Below are positions 131 to 38,243 of a stretch of 47,464 nucleotides of DNA, piece after piece. Numbering within the stretch: the stretch's first letter is position 1; the number at the start of each line of letters is the position of its first letter. Origin of the DNA: a virus; IMG/VR virus record IMGVR_UViG_3300048928_000088, positions 1 to 47,464 of that record; one strand, given 5' to 3'. A model generated the notes under the pieces. The model searched no databases. It was not told where the DNA came from and saw only the letters and a program-made list of their open reading frames with translations. Both the position numbers and the translations under genes were made by a program.

Positions 131-1060
131 ATGAAAGATGTAGGCGAAGAAAAAATTGGTGAGAGCACTGAGGAGCTTGAAATTGAAAGCGAGGAGAAAG
201 CGCGCGGCGAGAAGATAGAAATTGATGAAGATCGTCTCCCCTCCCGCGCAATGGCCATCCACGAGCATATACGCCAGGACGGTGAAAAAGAGATGGAGCG
301 CGACGCGATGGCCCTCTTCTGGTCAGCCATCGCTGCCGGGCTCTCAATGGGCGCATCTCTGCTTGCGAAAGGGATATTTCATGTGCAGCTGGAAGGCGTA
401 CCCGGTGGATTTTTACTGGAAAACCTCGGCTATACCTTCGGCTTTATTATTGTCATCATGGCCCGCCAGCAGCTGTTTACCGAAAACACGGTGACCGCCG
501 TTCTGCCGGTGATGCAAAACCCCACACTCGGTAATTTCGGCTTATTGATGCGGCTCTGGAGCGTGGTCCTGCTGGGTAATATCATCGGCACGGGCATCGC
601 GGCATGGGCGTTTGAATATATGCCGATCTTTGATGAACCCACCCGGGATGCGTTTGTGAAAATCGGCATGGACGTAATGAAAAACACGCCGGTCGAGATG
701 TTCTCAAACGCCATCATCTCAGGCTGGATTATCGCCACGATGGTCTGGATGTTTCCTTCAGCGGGAAGCGCCAAAATTGTGGTGATCATATTGATGACCT
801 GGCTGATTGCGCTGGCGGACACCACGCATATTGTGGTCGGTACCGTTGAAATCCTCTATCTGGTCTTTAACGGTACGCTTCACTGGAGCGATTTCTTCTG
901 GCCGTTTGCCCTTCCGACGCTGGCAGGAAACATTTGCGGCGGAACGTTTATCTTCGCGCTTTTAAGCCATGCCCAAATTCGTAACGACATGTCGAACAAA
1001 CGCAAAGCTGAGCTTAAGGCACGGGAAAATGATGATAAATCGACAAAAAAATCGACCTGA
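131..1060 (+). CDS. yfdC: YfdC, formate/nitrite transporter family inner-membrane protein (host)
   Basis: The 309-residue protein closely follows the E. coli YfdC sequence as I recall it (310 aa): an acidic N-terminal tail of about 55 residues with the block EIDEDRLPSRAMAIHEHIRQ, then a hydrophobic body of about six membrane segments (residues 60-290), then a Lys/Glu-rich tail. FNT-family proteins are inner-membrane channels for small anions; the YfdC substrate is not established. The ATG at 131 follows GGGAGCAGAT, a fair ribosome site. This is chromosomal DNA flanking the prophage: yfdC lies beside argW in E. coli as well, which places the insertion. The 130 bases before it hold the presumed promoter and no gene. 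Confidence 0.93.
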   Translation: MKDVGEEKIGESTEELEIESEEKARGEKIEIDEDRLPSRAMAIHEHIRQDGEKEMERDAMALFWSAIAAGLSMGASLLAKGIFHVQLEGVPGGFLLENLGYTFGFIIVIMARQQLFTENTVTAVLPVMQNPTLGNFGLLMRLWSVVLLGNIIGTGIAAWAFEYMPIFDEPTRDAFVKIGMDVMKNTPVEMFSNAIISGWIIATMVWMFPSAGSAKIVVIILMTWLIALADTTHIVVGTVEILYLVFNGTLHWSDFFWPFALPTLAGNICGGTFIFALLSHAQIRNDMSNKRKAELKARENDDKSTKKST

Positions 1061-1135: not shown

Positions 1136-1210
1136 GTCCCCTTAGTTAAATGGATATAACGAGCCCCTCCTAAGGGCTAGTTGCAGGTTCGATTCCTGCA
1201 GGGGACACCA
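1136..1210 (+). tRNA. argW: tRNA-Arg (anticodon CCT)
   Basis: Seventy-five bases fold as a cloverleaf with acceptor GTCCCCT/AGGGGAC, anticodon stem AGCCC/GGGCT, loop CTCCTAA (anticodon CCT), T arm GCAGG-TTCGATT-CCTGC, discriminator A and encoded CCA. The CCT anticodon reads the rare codon AGG. Position after yfdC matches E. coli argW. The 3' end of the gene is the phage attachment core, and the insertion leaves the tRNA intact because the phage supplies only sequence downstream of it. Confidence 0.97.
1196..1208. repeat. attL core (copy of 13-bp att sequence)
   Basis: CTGCAGGGGACAC occurs here, inside the argW T-arm/acceptor end, and again at 47342-47354. Nothing outside the 13 bases is shared between the two sites. 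Integrase and excisionase genes sit just inside the two copies, so these are read as attL and attR of the prophage. The true crossover region could be a few bases shorter. Confidence 0.9.
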
Positions 1211-1322: not shown

Positions 1323-1374
1323 TTGCGGGCATATTGTGGGCACACAGCAAAATGACCACGGATTTATGCCCACA
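1323..1374. promoter_or_regulatory. Integrase arm-type binding sites overlapping the int start
   Basis: TTGCGGGCATA (1323-1333) and TTGTGGGCACA (1334-1344) lie 11 bases apart, and an inverted TATGCCCACA (1365-1374) touches the int start codon. The same motif recurs twice at the other prophage end (47259-47281). Presence on both ends, and nowhere else noticed, indicates integrase arm sites. The overlap with the int start suggests that integrase represses its own gene, as reported for IntS of KplE1; that regulatory reading is inference here. The region 1211-1322 shows no gene. Confidence 0.7.
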
Positions 1375-2543
1375 TGCTTACGGTAAAGCAAATCGACGCA
1401 GCTAAGCCTGCGGAAAAATCATATCGCCTCGCAGATTCCGGAGGACTTTTCCTGTTCGTTCCGCCATCAGGAAAAAAGGTGTGGCGCATGCGTTACCGAT
1501 TCGAGGGAAAGGAAAAGACGCTGGTCATAGGGCCCTACCCGGAAATTTCTCTCACCGAAGCCAGGGCTAAACAGTCTGAAGCAAAAATGAAGCTGCTGAC
1601 TGGAGTTGATCCGGCCGAGCAGAAGCAGGCATTAAAAAAGAAAGAGAAAGAAGAAGCGGCCGACTCATTCGGTGATATCTTCCGAGAGTGGCATGCGCAT
1701 AAATCAAAGGTATGGTCAAAGGGATATTCTGACGAGATGATGAGTATGTTCACTGACGACATTCTTCCAGTCATCGGTCACTTACGCATGGATGATGTTG
1801 AGCCTATGACGCTGTTGAAGGTCATCAGGCTATTCGAAGACAGGGGCGCAATGGAACGCGCTGATAAGGCAAGGAGAAGGTGTGGTGAGGTATTCAGCTA
1901 TGCGATCATAACTGGAAGGGCTAAATACAATCCATCCAGAGACCTTGCTGGCGCGATGAAGGGGTACAGAAAGCAGAACTACCCTTTTCTTCCTATGCAC
2001 CGCATACACGAATTCCAGAGAGCTTTAAACGCGTATGGCGGTTGGATTGTATCGAAGATAGCGGCGCAGATTCTCCACTATACAGCTATGCGTACAGTGG
2101 AGTTACGTTCGCTGGTATGGACGGGAATTGATTACGAAACCAGGTTAATCAGCGTTGACCCTGAGGTCATGAAAGGCAGAAAGCTTCATGTCGTTCCAAT
2201 GTCGGACCAGGTTATCGAACTATTCAAATTCCTGCAACAAATCACTGGTCAGTATGAGCTTTGCTTCCCTGGTCGAACAGACAGGAAGAAGCCCATCAGT
2301 GAGAACGCCGTGCTCGGAGTAATACGTAGTATTGGCTACGAAGGCCAGACAAGCGGACACGGCATGCGCCACCAGTTCAGCACCGTACTCAACGAGAAGC
2401 ACTGGAACAAAGACGCGATAGAGATGCAGCTGGCGCACGTTAGCGGCGGAACGCGCTCAGTGTACAACCATGCTGAGTATCTCGATACGCGTCGTGAAAT
2501 GATGCAGTGGTGGGCGGACTGGTTAGATGAGAAGGTGGCATAG
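1374..2543 (+). CDS. Tyrosine-recombinase integrase, IntS/P4 type
   Basis: This 389-residue protein catalyses site-specific integration into argW. The N-terminal 90 residues are the DUF4102 arm-binding domain (LTVKQIDAAKP, VGG-like ALVIGPYPEISLTEAR), followed by a core-binding domain (about 95-195) and a catalytic domain. Catalytic landmarks are visible: Arg in HYTAMRTVELRSL, the HGMRHQF box, LAHVSGG and the nucleophile Tyr in RSVYNHAEYL. It is recognisably similar to E. coli IntS of KplE1 through its whole length, including the C-terminal MMQWWADWLDEKV. It is the only prophage gene on the + strand at this end; the partner excisionase lies 45 kb away at attR. Confidence 0.96.
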   Translation: MLTVKQIDAAKPAEKSYRLADSGGLFLFVPPSGKKVWRMRYRFEGKEKTLVIGPYPEISLTEARAKQSEAKMKLLTGVDPAEQKQALKKKEKEEAADSFGDIFREWHAHKSKVWSKGYSDEMMSMFTDDILPVIGHLRMDDVEPMTLLKVIRLFEDRGAMERADKARRRCGEVFSYAIITGRAKYNPSRDLAGAMKGYRKQNYPFLPMHRIHEFQRALNAYGGWIVSKIAAQILHYTAMRTVELRSLVWTGIDYETRLISVDPEVMKGRKLHVVPMSDQVIELFKFLQQITGQYELCFPGRTDRKKPISENAVLGVIRSIGYEGQTSGHGMRHQFSTVLNEKHWNKDAIEMQLAHVSGGTRSVYNHAEYLDTRREMMQWWADWLDEKVA

Positions 2544-7993: not shown

Positions 7994-8655
7994 ACTGGTT
8001 TATCCGTGGTGTTTGAAGTAACAGTTGAGCCGCCAGTTTGAACGCCTGGAACAGGGTGTTTATGCTGGTCATATTTGTCACGCAGGGTTTTGAGTGATGC
8101 AGACTGAGTGCCGACATTGTCTGTGATATCTCCGCCAGCCCTAATGTTTCCACTGACGTACATATCCGGCGTCGTGATGTTTACCCCATTGGGAGCGACG
8201 ATATTTATTTTGTTATCTGCAAACTCGACGTATTGGGTTGGAGCCTGATTAAGAAAGCCGCCAAAATAAAGCGCATCAGATTTGCTGTGCATTCTCTTGC
8301 TTCCTGGCACAGATTGCTTACGGTTTGCCCGGGCTATTGAGTTGTCGCGGTCGCAGATGGCGATCATGCCAATATCACCCGGAACCGGATTCATGATGAC
8401 TGCACTAGCCCCGCGCTGAAGTCTGAACACCGGCACATTGAAAATTTCCGAGTTCTGGATGGTGGCGCCTGACGGGTCTGTCCTTGTTACAAGCGGCATG
8501 ACATCCACTACCAGATTCGGAGCAGTTCCGCGAATAGCCGTCACCTCAACAAGCTCAATAAAAAAAGCCCCTGAAAGGAGCTTTTTAAATACGTATGAAA
8601 GGTTTTCCGCATCACTAGTTTGAGCACTAGTTGGCGTGAATAAATGGTCAGCCAC
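7990..8655 (-). CDS. Membrane-puncturing spike protein (Gp138 N-terminal fold)
   Basis: 221 residues. The N-terminal half is an OB-fold-like region (VEVTAIRGTAPNLVVDVMPLV, IQNSEIFNVPVFRLQRG, GDIGMIAICDRDNS) matching the Gp138 N-terminal family; the rest is beta-helix-like with short repeats (NIVAPNGVNITTPDMYVSGNIRAGGDIT). The end carries HKHPVPGVQTGGST, the HxH-type motif that in related spikes binds a metal at the tip. It is the central needle that crosses the outer membrane after sheath contraction. Confidence 0.86.
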   Translation of the reverse strand: MADHLFTPTSAQTSDAENLSYVFKKLLSGAFFIELVEVTAIRGTAPNLVVDVMPLVTRTDPSGATIQNSEIFNVPVFRLQRGASAVIMNPVPGDIGMIAICDRDNSIARANRKQSVPGSKRMHSKSDALYFGGFLNQAPTQYVEFADNKINIVAPNGVNITTPDMYVSGNIRAGGDITDNVGTQSASLKTLRDKYDQHKHPVPGVQTGGSTVTSNTTDKPV

Positions 8656-9517
8656 TGGTCGCCTCTTCTAATTTTCTGTTAGCAATGCACACCGAATGCC
8701 AGGGGCCGTCTTCCATCCAGGATGACAGCTCATGAGTTACGCTGGTGAGCTTATAAACGCCGCTGGCATGAGGCAGAGTTGTCTGCAGCTCTATGTCTCG
8801 CCCTGTTGTCAGAAGCGTTGAGAACTGTGTCTGAAACATCACGCCGCCATTTGAGAAGACGGGATATCCAATTAATCCGTATTCAGGAGAGATAAGAGGC
8901 TTCACGTCGTCCTTGGTGCTTTCCTGCGGCCAGAATGATATCGACGGTGGAGCGACAGACATTGCAATGTTCAGGTCATCGCAGACTGCCCGCAACTGGT
9001 CAAAGACGCTCCCTTCATAGTGGGGATTTGAAATTACTTTTCCTTCCAGCCCCACGATGTAAGGCGTGTACCCGGCTGCCTTGCAGATAGCGTTAATAAC
9101 GCTTGTAACCGGTGTTGAGCCGCTGAATGAGAAAGGTGATGCAACCTTATTCTGCAGGTCAGCATTGGCAGTTGCGGTTATCATTAATGGCGCATTTGGC
9201 GGAAGATTCATGTTGGGAGTAGAAGATGTCATGTACCCAGTAAAAATGGCTATATCTTCTACATAGATCTTCATAATGATACGCTCGGTATCAGTTCCAA
9301 ATAGACCCATTGCCTTTGATGATAATGCTGCGAGCATATCAAGGCTAAGCCCAAAAATGCTTACGCTAACCTGGGTTCCGAACAGATTTCCTGATGACTG
9401 AAGCGACACAGATGATTTAACGTTACTTATTGAAATCTTATTATTTCCTGCATCATCAAATGATGATGTTTCATTAACAAATTCATATTTTAACGTTCGT
9501 TTACTGTACAAGTTCAC
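8648..9517 (-). CDS. Baseplate hub protein
   Basis: 289 residues, beta-rich. It holds the order plug - hub - spike seen in contractile phages such as E217 and Pam3, where the protein upstream of the Gp138 spike is the hub (T4 gp27/P2 gpD-like). Visible hub-like stretches are STPVTSVINAICKAAGYTPYIV and VFDQLRAVCDDLNIAMSVAPPSISFWP, typical of the gpD cell-puncturing-complex fold. Assignment rests mainly on position plus these segments. Confidence 0.78.
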   Translation of the reverse strand: MNLYSKRTLKYEFVNETSSFDDAGNNKISISNVKSSVSLQSSGNLFGTQVSVSIFGLSLDMLAALSSKAMGLFGTDTERIIMKIYVEDIAIFTGYMTSSTPNMNLPPNAPLMITATANADLQNKVASPFSFSGSTPVTSVINAICKAAGYTPYIVGLEGKVISNPHYEGSVFDQLRAVCDDLNIAMSVAPPSISFWPQESTKDDVKPLISPEYGLIGYPVFSNGGVMFQTQFSTLLTTGRDIELQTTLPHASGVYKLTSVTHELSSWMEDGPWHSVCIANRKLEEATSG

Positions 9518-9806: not shown

Positions 9807-10618
9807 GTGATGCTCCCACTTATCGATTTTGCCAGTTCAGCAGCTTTTTGTGTGGCGCTGTTTGCCACATTCAGCACCGGCTCAGATACCGTATCTAATG
9901 CACTTTGGAAGCTAGTGGAAATGGTATTAGATGTTTTAGTTACAATATCTGATACAGAAGATTTTAGAGACGACCAGGATTTTCCCAGCTCATCCACGGT
10001 AGATGGTTTAGAACCTGCATCCTTAGTCGATGCTCCTGTTCCCGTCACACCCTGGCTAATTGAGTCATTAGTTGGTTTCGCCTCAGACTGAGCCCCGGAC
10101 AGAACAACCTCCATCTGCTGCATGACTTCCTGAAAATACAGGTATATTGTCAGCATGCTCACGCCGCGCTGTGAATTGACCTCATATGAATGGTCAACCA
10201 GGTCATAGCTCTCAAGTGTCTCTTTCGGCGTCTCGATGTCGTAAGTATTGGCCGTAGATAGCATCGTCTTGATGGTTTCAAGTACGCTGCTCTGGCTGGT
10301 AAATGTCAGGTCGAAGATGTTTGGAATGCCCCCTGAGAAGCCCGTCAGTCCAGTGACAATTATTTCGCACCTGACAACAGATGGTTCTTTCACTTTGTTG
10401 ATGGACTGGTATTTTCCGCCCTCCACCGGTGCATTCGTTATCTGAGCCCTGCCACTTGGCTGAATTGATGCCATGCCGCTGAACTCAAGCGCTACAGCTC
10501 CTGTGGTGCTGTTTCTGATGACATACTGAGGATGTAGAACGCTGTCGATTATCGACAGTGGAGAGCCACCGCCGATCGCATTAAATATGTCTGCGGTATT
10601 GAGGTCGATGATGCTCAT
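9803..10618 (-). CDS. Baseplate/tail protein, Dit-like position
   Basis: 271 residues from the start at 10618, chosen over 10633 because GGAGAAACG precedes it. The first 165 residues are beta-rich and well ordered (SIIDSVLHPQYVIRN, FDLTFTSQSSVLETIKTML); residues from about 180 are Ser/Thr/Lys-rich and probably flexible, with a helical end. It sits between tape measure and plug, the place of the protein that ends the tube and starts the baseplate (distal-tail-like). I would not claim a firmer family. Confidence 0.6.
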   Translation of the reverse strand: MSIIDLNTADIFNAIGGGSPLSIIDSVLHPQYVIRNSTTGAVALEFSGMASIQPSGRAQITNAPVEGGKYQSINKVKEPSVVRCEIIVTGLTGFSGGIPNIFDLTFTSQSSVLETIKTMLSTANTYDIETPKETLESYDLVDHSYEVNSQRGVSMLTIYLYFQEVMQQMEVVLSGAQSEAKPTNDSISQGVTGTGASTKDAGSKPSTVDELGKSWSSLKSSVSDIVTKTSNTISTSFQSALDTVSEPVLNVANSATQKAAELAKSISGSIT

Positions 10619-37550: not shown

Positions 37551-37585
37551 ATGCGCTTGACGCATTTGCGCTTAACGCATACATT
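37551..37585 (+). promoter_or_regulatory. PL promoter with OL operators
   Basis: -35 TTGACG (37557-37562), 17-base spacer, -10 TACATT (37580-37585). Two operators abut: ATGCGCTTGACGCAT (37551-37565) and TTGCGCTTAACGCAT (37566-37580), covering both promoter boxes. They share the form of the OR sites. Drives the long + strand operon to the excisionase. Confidence 0.85.
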
Positions 37586-37630
37586 TAAGCCATCAGCAGG
37601 ACGCTGGTAGCCAAACGGAACAGATTGGCA

Positions 37631-37668
37631 GGCTCTTTAACAAGATGACATGGGGATGATTCGTCCCC
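37631..37668 (+). promoter_or_regulatory. nutL site (boxA and boxB)
   Basis: boxA GGCTCTTTAACA (37631-37642) followed by boxB GGGGA-TGATTCG-TCCCC (37652-37668), 45 bases past PL. boxB could close with a U-G pair to leave a pentaloop as in lambda. Confidence 0.85.
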
Positions 37669-37679
37669 GCCAAAGGATG

Positions 37680-37828
37680 TTGCTTTGGGATGTGGTGAAG
37701 CTCAACGGCGAGCTAGCAGATAGGCGACTGTGAAAATACTAGTCATGTAGCGGAACGCTGCGCGTACTGCAATCGGCATCGCACCGATGGAAGCTGGTTC
37801 GACTCCAGCCACCACATCACCAAAGCAA
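37680..37828 (+). ncRNA. tRNA-like structured RNA in the PL leader
   Basis: Outer helix: TTGCTTTGG-GATGTGGTG (37680-37697) pairs with CACCACATC-A-CCAAAGCAA (37810-37828), 18 bp with one bulged A. Within it: AA linker, D-arm-like GCTC-AACGGC-GAGC (37700-37713), a T-arm GCTGG-TTCGACT-CCAGC (37793-37809) flush against the helix, and ACCA after a 9-bp acceptor. The anticodon region is replaced by 78 bases with stems GACT/AGTC, GTAGCG/CGCTGC and ATCGG/CCGAT. No ordinary anticodon arm is seen, so it is tRNA-shaped rather than a standard tRNA. Role unknown: processing site, leader control or decoy. Confidence 0.65.
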
Positions 37829-37848
37829 CCACCAACAAAGGAGAGCAT

Positions 37849-37884
37849 ATGCGAAGGCAGAGCTTAAACAACGAGAATATTTAA
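37849..37884 (+). CDS. Possible leader peptide (11 aa)
   Basis: ATG with a strong AAAGGAGAGCAT ribosome site encodes MRRQSLNNENI then TAA, 20 bases after the tRNA-like element and 40 bases before a 9-bp hairpin. Such a short, well-started frame before a hairpin recalls leader peptides; function unproven. Confidence 0.4.
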   Translation: MRRQSLNNENI

Positions 37885-37924
37885 ATACTGATCCGCGCCG
37901 GCGTTAACCAGCACGCATGGGGTG

Positions 37925-37948
37925 AGCCTCTCGCAATGTCGAGAGGCT
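37925..37948 (+). terminator. Hairpin before the N-like gene
   Basis: AGCCTCTCG-CAATGT-CGAGAGGCT, a perfect 9-bp stem followed by TTTACC. Short T tract: perhaps a partial terminator. A second pairing, TTTACC with GGTAAA, frames bases 37949-37979. The rest of 37885-38000 has no gene. Confidence 0.5.
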
Positions 37949-38000
37949 TTACCAAATAGCATCAACGTTATTCGGTAAAGCAAATCATCGGAGGTATCCA

Positions 38001-38243
38001 ATGAAAGCCAGAGAGATTCGTAAACTCGAACGTGCTCGTCAGCACAAAGAGATGAAAGCCTACTGTAAAAAGATTGACCGTGCATTTTCACGGCTGTCTG
38101 AAGGATGTAGTGAGCGCGTGACACGAGCCATTTCGCTTGCCGGAACGCGTCAGAAGGAAGTTGAAGGTGGCGCTGTATGTCTGCCAGAAGTTGCGCTTTT
38201 CGCAGCTGGCCATCGTAAGTCTAACAACGTTACAGCGAGGTGA
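38001..38243 (+). CDS. Candidate N-like antiterminator (80 aa)
   Basis: ATG after ATCGGAGGTATCCA. First 25 residues are an arginine/lysine-rich helix, MKAREIRKLERARQHKEMKA, which can be laid on lambda N (Met1, Ala3, Arg7, basic 8, Arg11, Ala12, Lys19, Ala20 shared). The rest is polar with a cluster of Arg and Ser. As the first sizeable gene of the PL operon, in a phage with boxA/boxB sites on both sides, it is the best N candidate. It is shorter than lambda N (107 aa) and lacks obvious similarity outside the basic helix. Confidence 0.55.
   Translation: MKAREIRKLERARQHKEMKAYCKKIDRAFSRLSEGCSERVTRAISLAGTRQKEVEGGAVCLPEVALFAAGHRKSNNVTAR

Follow-up and report, generated by a model that had tools for sequence, protein, structure and literature searches.

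What is a tRNA-shaped segment without an anticodon doing in the leader of a lambda-type early operon? The question is raised by the window, i.e., the whole stretch of DNA that was analyzed (47,464 nt, IMG/VR record IMGVR_UViG_3300048928_000088), in which such a segment lies in the pL leader. The original prediction, made from the sequence, described a tRNA-shaped structured RNA at 37680-37828 and proposed processing of the leader, among other roles. By comparing the element with its homologues, we conclude that it is probably a stable RNA with a job of its own rather than a quirk of one leader. The best explanation overall, for which our confidence is somewhat better than even, is a tRNA-shaped RNA that is released by RNase III and acts in trans as a homodimeric tRNA mimic.

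Location and anatomy of the element

The features of the window are listed in Table 1. The window probably represents a prophage inserted at a tRNA gene resembling argW, and the frame at its start is presumably YfdC. Transcription from pL would start near 37592, as judged by alignment with lambda ATCAGCAGGACGC (lambda +1 = 35582). The predicted position between nutL and the first gene of the operon was borne out, and the match of that gene to PF25694 showed it to be N. Relative to L070 and L116, in which the N gene begins directly after the element, the window has approximately 130 extra bases between the element and N (37835-37995), within which lie two strong hairpins and a frame of 11 codons (MRRQSLNNENI, starting at 37849).

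Table 1. Coordinates of the features in the window
Feature	Position	Strand	Basis
Formate/nitrite-transporter-like frame, apparent host DNA at window start	131-1060		name by reading of the frame
tRNA-Arg(CCT)	1136-1210		
Tyrosine-integrase-like frame	1374-2543		name by reading of the frame
pL promoter, TTGACG-17-TACATT	37557-37585	+	consensus scan only
boxA of nutL, GCTCTTTAACA	37632-37642	+	resemblance to lambda and rrn boxA
boxB-like hairpin of nutL, GGGGATGATTCGTCCCC	37652-37668	+	sequence and fold
Upstream X copy, CCAAAG, able to pair with 37683-37688 in place of the outer helix	37670-37675	+	moderate support
Outer helix 5' strand, GTTGCTTTGG, equal to the lambda N-leader RNase III stem	37679-37688	+	fold; covariation, 19 distinct outer-helix versions; same stem in lambda
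Acceptor-like helix 5' strand, 9 bp	37689-37697	+	two-sided changes in 7/9 pairs
D-like arm, AGCTC-AACGGC-GAGCT, loop GG invariant	37699-37714	+	alignment of homologues; GG resembles G18G19
Long arm replacing the anticodon arm	37716-37770	+	P3 and P4 covary
P3, 4 bp	37716-37719/37767-37770	+	two-sided changes in 3/4 pairs
P4, up to 9 bp	37723-37730/37751-37759	+	two-sided changes in 8/9 pairs
Self-complementary hexamer ACTAGT in apical loop, predicted kissing-loop homodimer contact	37738-37743	+	comparison of homologues
Conserved GCGCGTA on one side of the long-arm internal loop (AUA/GCGCGUA)	37760-37766	+	
Short arm, 5 bp/7-nt loop, ATCGG-CATCGCA-CCGAT, loop CGCA invariant	37772-37788	+	alignment, covariation
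T arm, GCTGG-TTCGACT-CCAGC, flush on inner helix	37793-37809	+	two-sided changes in 4/5 pairs; TTCGA invariant in lambdoid branch
Acceptor-like helix 3' strand	37810-37818	+	covariation
Bulged A between outer and inner helix, as in the lambda N leader	37819	+	
Outer helix 3' strand, CCAAAGCAAC	37820-37829	+	fold, covariation
N-type antitermination protein gene, first recognizable pL-operon gene	38001-38243	+	PF25694 N_peptide, E 5e-18; phrog_271

The minimum free energy of the element was -73.9 kcal/mol, compared with -46.7 +/- 3.7 kcal/mol in shuffled sequences (z -7.4, matched by 0 of 200), which speaks against a chance fold. The two stacked helices with a single bulged A were as described, while the closing helix comprises 19 bp rather than 18: an outer helix of 10 bp, 100% complementary, and an inner one of 9 bp that bounds the core of the element (37689-37818). 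The canonical T arm flush on the acceptor helix and the D-like arm in its place, both part of the original prediction, were seen in the sequence and in the fold.

The middle of the element was said to lack a normal anticodon arm, which held, and to consist of 78 bases with three stems, which did not: homologues support by covariation two arms, a long arm with an apical loop of approximately 20 nt and a short arm with 5 bp and a loop of 7 nt. RNAfold places small hairpins within the long arm that do not correspond to covarying pairs. Topologically, the element matches a class II tRNA in which the anticodon arm is enlarged or, read alternatively, a class I tRNA with an additional arm following the D arm; neither reading yields a usable anticodon loop. 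The ACCA noted right behind the inner helix is not a tRNA 3' end; it belongs to the lambda-type outer stem and is not conserved, being absent from most late-leader and large-phage members. As a conserved 3' CCA is lacking, neither charging nor classical maturation as a tRNA is likely. The element should not decode either.

Homologues and covariation

Relatives were found by blastn in 92 phage records and in 172 of 5,426 complete E. coli genomes (about 3%), with some few of the E. coli matches spanning only a short flank, and pattern scans of IMG/VR yielded many further homologues. A blastn match in the 634-kb phage LR745206 was rejected, as it covers only the T arm of a tRNA-Pro. In a genome search, the element was present in 2 of 395 genomes of the order, one of them the centre genome, and in the centre genome only among 398 genomes of the phylum; the element is thus rare and phage-borne. 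We parsed 132 close copies, 64 of them distinct, and used for alignment the 38 that differ by at least 4 edits.

RNAalifold applied to the MAFFT alignment of these 38 sequences independently returned a cloverleaf with compensated changes in 20 of 33 pairs. All the parts recur in the homologues, namely a 9-bp acceptor, a D arm with GG, the long arm, the 5-bp/7-nt arm, and a canonical T arm. In the assigned arms, 95% of cells were paired, and the covariation check that the original prediction had proposed was passed with two-sided changes in 24 of 36 pairs. The covariation score was 0.363, compared with 0.142 in shuffles (0 of 500 matched it), and in a control in which the partner strand was slid by 1-3 columns, pairing fell to 33-45%. 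The signal is uneven along the element: the D-arm pairs show hardly any variation, the ACTAGT type has a weak P4 owing to an internal A/A mismatch, and some cores folded as single sequences adopt other folds (L006, z -1.3). The 7-nt loop and the GCGCGUA internal loop could also form a CGC/GCG pseudoknot; both sides are invariant, hence the absence of a covariation signal there.

The D-loop GG and the T-loop TTCGA, within the TTCRANN consensus of a tRNA elbow, are invariant in all 38 lambdoid members, and as judged from this alignment the elbow is therefore among the best conserved parts of the element. The 7-nt loop does not follow a tRNA in the same way, since it reads [CT][AT][GT]CGCA and has A (T in one row) at the place of U33.

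The original prediction had not recognized a described family, and the element corresponds to none in Rfam. ARAGORN and Rfam 15 run over the whole window reported only the tRNA-Arg at 1136 and no tmRNA, and the element was not matched by Rfam at the gathering cutoff. When Rfam matches up to E 10 were considered, tRNA-Sec aligned to the element with 18.3 bits (cutoff 47) and RAGATH-28 matched weakly at the nutL hairpin, well below its cutoff; the GOLLD (RF02032) and ROOL models did not match at the element. A described tRNA-like phage RNA corresponding to it was not found in the open-licence literature; the "tRNA-like sequences" of a preprint on Pas sRNA are integration sites unrelated to the element. 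Two existing annotations within copies look like artefacts, namely a small protein, polyubiquitin-A, in ON470589 (L009:1908-2033) and a tRNA-Ser in PQ186186 (L003:1580-1637).

A self-complementary apical loop

A hexamer in the apical loop of the long arm (alignment columns 62-67) is self-complementary in all 38 homologues and occurs in six versions: ACTAGT, TCTAGA, TCGCGA, GCTAGC, ACCGGT, and, with G-U pairing, TCTGGA. Pairing within the hexamer was 100%, compared with 69.5% in shuffles, and the covariation score was 0.68 against 0.14; self-complementarity was absent at other positions of the long arm in these homologues. A tree built with the loop left out requires at least eight changes from one hexamer to another. 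Since adjacent bases cannot pair within one chain for steric reasons, this pattern points to pairing between two copies of the RNA, and the long-arm loop is predicted to form a kissing homodimer. The same intermolecular argument was applied to the quaternary contacts of OLE and GOLLD, whose complexes were solved by cryo-EM (PMC12286853).

Genomic contexts and a distant branch

A tie of the element to pL leaders, or to antitermination as such, is not upheld by the distribution of copies: about two-thirds of the 132 close ones are found outside pL leaders, chiefly in the late operon downstream of tR' or in lytic phages. A class B 5' domain is present in 89 copies and an outer helix in 39, the outer-helix leader copies making up about one-quarter to one-third and often lying exactly between nutL and N. 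Class A copies, located in a pL leader directly before N, include those of the window, BIS08P22 (L005), the E. coli C1 prophage (L010), L110, L116, and others, and related early leaders precede other small genes in L016, L072, and L077. Class B copies occupy a late leader between Q/tR' and the lysis genes, as in HK75, 611R6, and E. coli prophages; L002 (HK75), L009, L012, and L013 are late-leader copies. The Skatevirus group and Pantoea phage PdC23 (L007) are also assigned to class B.

In the lytic Skatevirus group the element is antisense to structural genes, and in Skate itself (L008) it adjoins tRNA-Ile. A T-rich hairpin follows the element in L003, L006, and L008, and L003 has a promoter-like site upstream of it (1312-1340). 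With this site on one side and the hairpin on the other, the element may be a stand-alone RNA gene in these lytic phages. The same hexamer types appear in outer-helix and CACAACAGG settings; the core thus moves as a module, as expected if the function lies in the core. Judged by where its copies are found, the element is not confined to pL leaders.

A covariance model of the core (R1, whose E-values are rough) recovered eight divergent homologues with 43-64 bits in large-phage contigs (L170, L171, L185-L188, L190, and L191), which had been brought in by patterns built on the short arm; the contigs are metagenomic. All eight lie amid tRNA genes, with 4 to 23 tRNAs in the stretch examined, and R1 gave the array tRNAs themselves at most about 32 bits. 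These members retain P3, P4, the short arm, the T arm, and an invariant D-loop GG, with a D stem of at most 3 bp; the T loop is retained in seven. Within an 8-nt apical loop all eight have a palindrome, TTCGAA or TTGCAA, which represents a CG to GC change. In the L188 array, a GOLLD RNA (RF02032, 223 bits, 8247-8702) lies 1.4 kb from the element (10078-10219). Hairpin units ATATAAAAACACATT...GTGTGTTTCTATATGG flank the element in L171, L185, L186, L188, and L191 and repeat along the tRNA arrays; neighboring units can pair across the intervening RNA, like rRNA leader-trailer helices, and are possible RNase III processing signals.

The closing stem and the lambda N leader

The RNase III stem of the lambda N leader (pL leader, approximately +82 to +203) lies, like the element, between nutL and N. 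Its outer helix GGCTTTGGGGTGTG/CACACCACCAAAGC, at +83 and +194, is identical to that of the window and has the same bulged A, and the lambda alternative hairpin upstream, CAAAGCAGAAGGCUUUG, has a counterpart in the window leader. The window thus has a lambda-type long stem with a bulged A between nutL and N. Lambda has ...CACCACCAAAGC but lacks the tRNA-like core; the stem interiors of lambda and P22 hold other sequences without an R1 match, and the core occurs without the stem in other phages. The covariance model detected no homology of the core to segments from lambda, P22, or HK97. The lambda N leader is an RNase III substrate (Steege 1987, as cited in PMC5371410, ref. 19), and N represses its own translation via nutL in a manner modulated by RNase III (Wilson 1997, 2002, as cited in PMC5725501, refs 28 and 29). 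The earlier idea that the leader is processed here appears sound, with RNase III the better-founded enzyme because the closing helix matches the lambda N-leader stem; RNase P may also cleave at the acceptor.

In several classes, a second partner for the 5' closing strand lies upstream. The CCAAAG copy (X) is present in nearly all pL-leader members, and in L036, L108, L156, and L168 the change in X' is matched upstream better than, or no worse than, downstream. In class B the partner is CACAACAGGTAAGAGCA: in its 12 distinct versions, between 10 and 16 of the 16 positions pair, changes are compensated in L032 and L131, and pairing is perfect in another register in L066. In the large-phage branch the partner is CATATAAAAACA. 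Most single-sequence tests of this complementarity, made on a stretch that truncated short hairpins, did not reach significance, and the class-wise comparison gave moderate support. Given a second partner in several classes, co-transcriptional strand exchange before the core is complete is likely, at this moderate level of support, and a role for such exchange may be supposed.

Proposed function and alternatives

The fold, its conservation, the self-complementary loop, and the independence from context are established, to the extent that comparison of homologues can do so. On this basis, we propose that the core is a phage-borne RNA gene whose product would fold as a tRNA-like body with an acceptor/T-arm stack and a D-loop/T-loop elbow, and would form a homodimer by pairing of its long-arm loop with the same loop of a second molecule. 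In the window, this gene lies within the lambda-type N-leader stem; RNase III would cut the stem in the pL transcript, thereby releasing the RNA and separating nutL from the N message. As the anatomy suggests, the released RNA could act in trans as a stable tRNA mimic and tie up either a host factor that handles tRNAs or a defence directed at them, to which the homodimer would present two tRNA elbows. Release of the same core from the late leader or from tRNA arrays of other phages would proceed along similar lines.

The location of the window copy and of other outer-helix copies between nutL and N would suit a purely cis-acting leader element with no function as a separate RNA, whose bulk within the N-leader stem would serve as a spacer and adjust both cleavage by RNase III and autorepression of N. 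In lambda and P22 this stem encloses different sequences, which indicates that many inserts are tolerated there, and the upstream CCAAAG/CTTTGG hairpin could switch the stem. However, the same core, with about 88-91% DNA identity, is found in late leaders and in lytic phages without N nearby, the homologues in tRNA arrays have no obvious downstream gene to regulate, and a spacer needs neither an invariant D-T elbow nor a conserved self-complementary loop; we regard the spacer as unlikely. The late leaders also bear on a put- or nut-like RNA that would act on RNA polymerase in antitermination and would account for the occurrence of the element in two leaders that depend on antitermination (pL and pR') and for a boxA-like TGCTCTTA within the upstream stem of the late class. 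This TGCTCTTA, however, covaries as a helix (L032, L066, and L131) and is not conserved as a boxA; the HK75 copy lies downstream of tR' and is thus not needed to pass it; the window phage has N and nutL and HK75 has Q; and the copies in tRNA arrays and antisense to structural genes in Skatevirus do not fit. Such a role is very improbable, and a put-type match, which the original prediction had named as a result that would speak against it, was not supported.

The least probable reading, which we consider scarcely credible, is a genuine tRNA of degenerate or unusual form (class II, Ser/Sec-like) that continues to decode or to be charged. The D arm, T arm, and elbow consensus, the call of a Skatevirus copy as tRNA-Ser by an automatic annotator, and the subthreshold tRNA-Sec alignment point in this direction, but the loop at the tip of the long arm has about 20 nt, the 7-nt loop (CATCGCA/CAGCGCA) is no anticodon loop with U33, the acceptor/T stack is 9+5 bp and not 7+5 or 8+5, CCA is not conserved, and neither ARAGORN nor Rfam matched the element at threshold. 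A decoy or antidote against tRNA-directed host defence (anticodon nucleases or tRNA-depleting toxins), or against one tRNA enzyme (RNase P, RNase Z, or EF-Tu), is a specific form of the trans-acting mimic that we favor, and in this narrow form it is somewhat unlikely. The element moves with tRNA genes and occupies moron positions of lambdoid phages, its elbow is invariant though the anticodon is gone, and a dimer could engage dimeric tRNA enzymes; on the other hand, direct evidence singles out no target, and anticodon-directed nucleases would not recognize the element.

Comparison with known RNAs

The element shares with class II tRNAs (Ser, Leu, Tyr, and Sec) the acceptor, D arm, T arm, order of arms, and elbow residues, and differs from them in its 9-bp acceptor, the lack of a decoding loop, the nonconserved CCA, and the self-complementary long-arm loop. 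The tRNA-like domain of tmRNA likewise has tRNA-like ends and a replaced anticodon arm, but ARAGORN called no tmRNA here and the 130-nt core has no tag frame. The put RNAs of HK022 are two adjacent stem-loops that start the pL and pR transcripts of phages without N; the element has another shape, the window phage has N and nutL, and the HK75 copy follows tR'.

T4 RNA C (species 1 RNA, rnaC, 139 nt) is, like the element, a small phage RNA in a tRNA cluster with an acceptor-like closing helix, and its T arm with GGTTCGAATCC, long arm, and hairpin before the T arm follow the same plan. Homology was nevertheless rejected, as R1 scored 14.6 bits on rnaC, no better than on T4 tRNAs. The consensus of RNA C is different (rnaC alignment A3), it has neither a D arm nor a conserved palindromic loop, and its closing helix has 7 bp with U-U pairs compared with 9 bp in the element. 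T4 RNA C is a stable RNA, and both RNA C and RNA D were still described in 2022 as having no known function (PMC9697503). Relatives of RNA C in Kosakonia phage Kc304 and Enterobacter phages SonariX and EnC15 (L178:1409-1547, L180, L181, and L182) have diverged far enough to provide a starting point for a structure based on covariation; the annotation of the SonariX copy labels part of it tRNA-Met.

GOLLD and ROOL form RNA-only cages. Like the element, they are phage-borne RNAs near tRNA islands with unknown function, GOLLD even occurring in the same L188 array, although both are much larger, fold otherwise, and have no tRNA-elbow body. They are homo-oligomers held by kissing loops with palindrome covariation (PMC12286853), and the element has a predicted symmetric kissing loop with a covarying palindrome as judged by comparative evidence. 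Within Rfam and the open-licence literature, the element is a new family among the structured RNAs of phage tRNA islands and a member of no named family. The fuller claim, that it represents a new self-dimerizing tRNA-elbow RNA family of lambdoid, lytic siphoviral, and large phages acting in trans on the host tRNA-handling or tRNA-based defence machinery, is a tentative one to which we give slightly less than even confidence.

An element that carries no annotation, or is labeled a stray tRNA-Ser or a small protein, is a conserved gene. Near their tRNA genes, phages have a number of structured RNAs of unknown purpose (T4 RNA C/D, GOLLD, and ROOL); the family described here is small, with a clear tRNA-like body and a predicted one-contact dimer, and is present in the genetically tractable coliphage HK75, which makes the role of tRNA-island phage RNAs testable by simple genetics. 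If the proposal is correct, the element would be a tractable 130-nt relative in kind of the RNAs that make up the T4 RNA C/D and GOLLD/ROOL puzzle.
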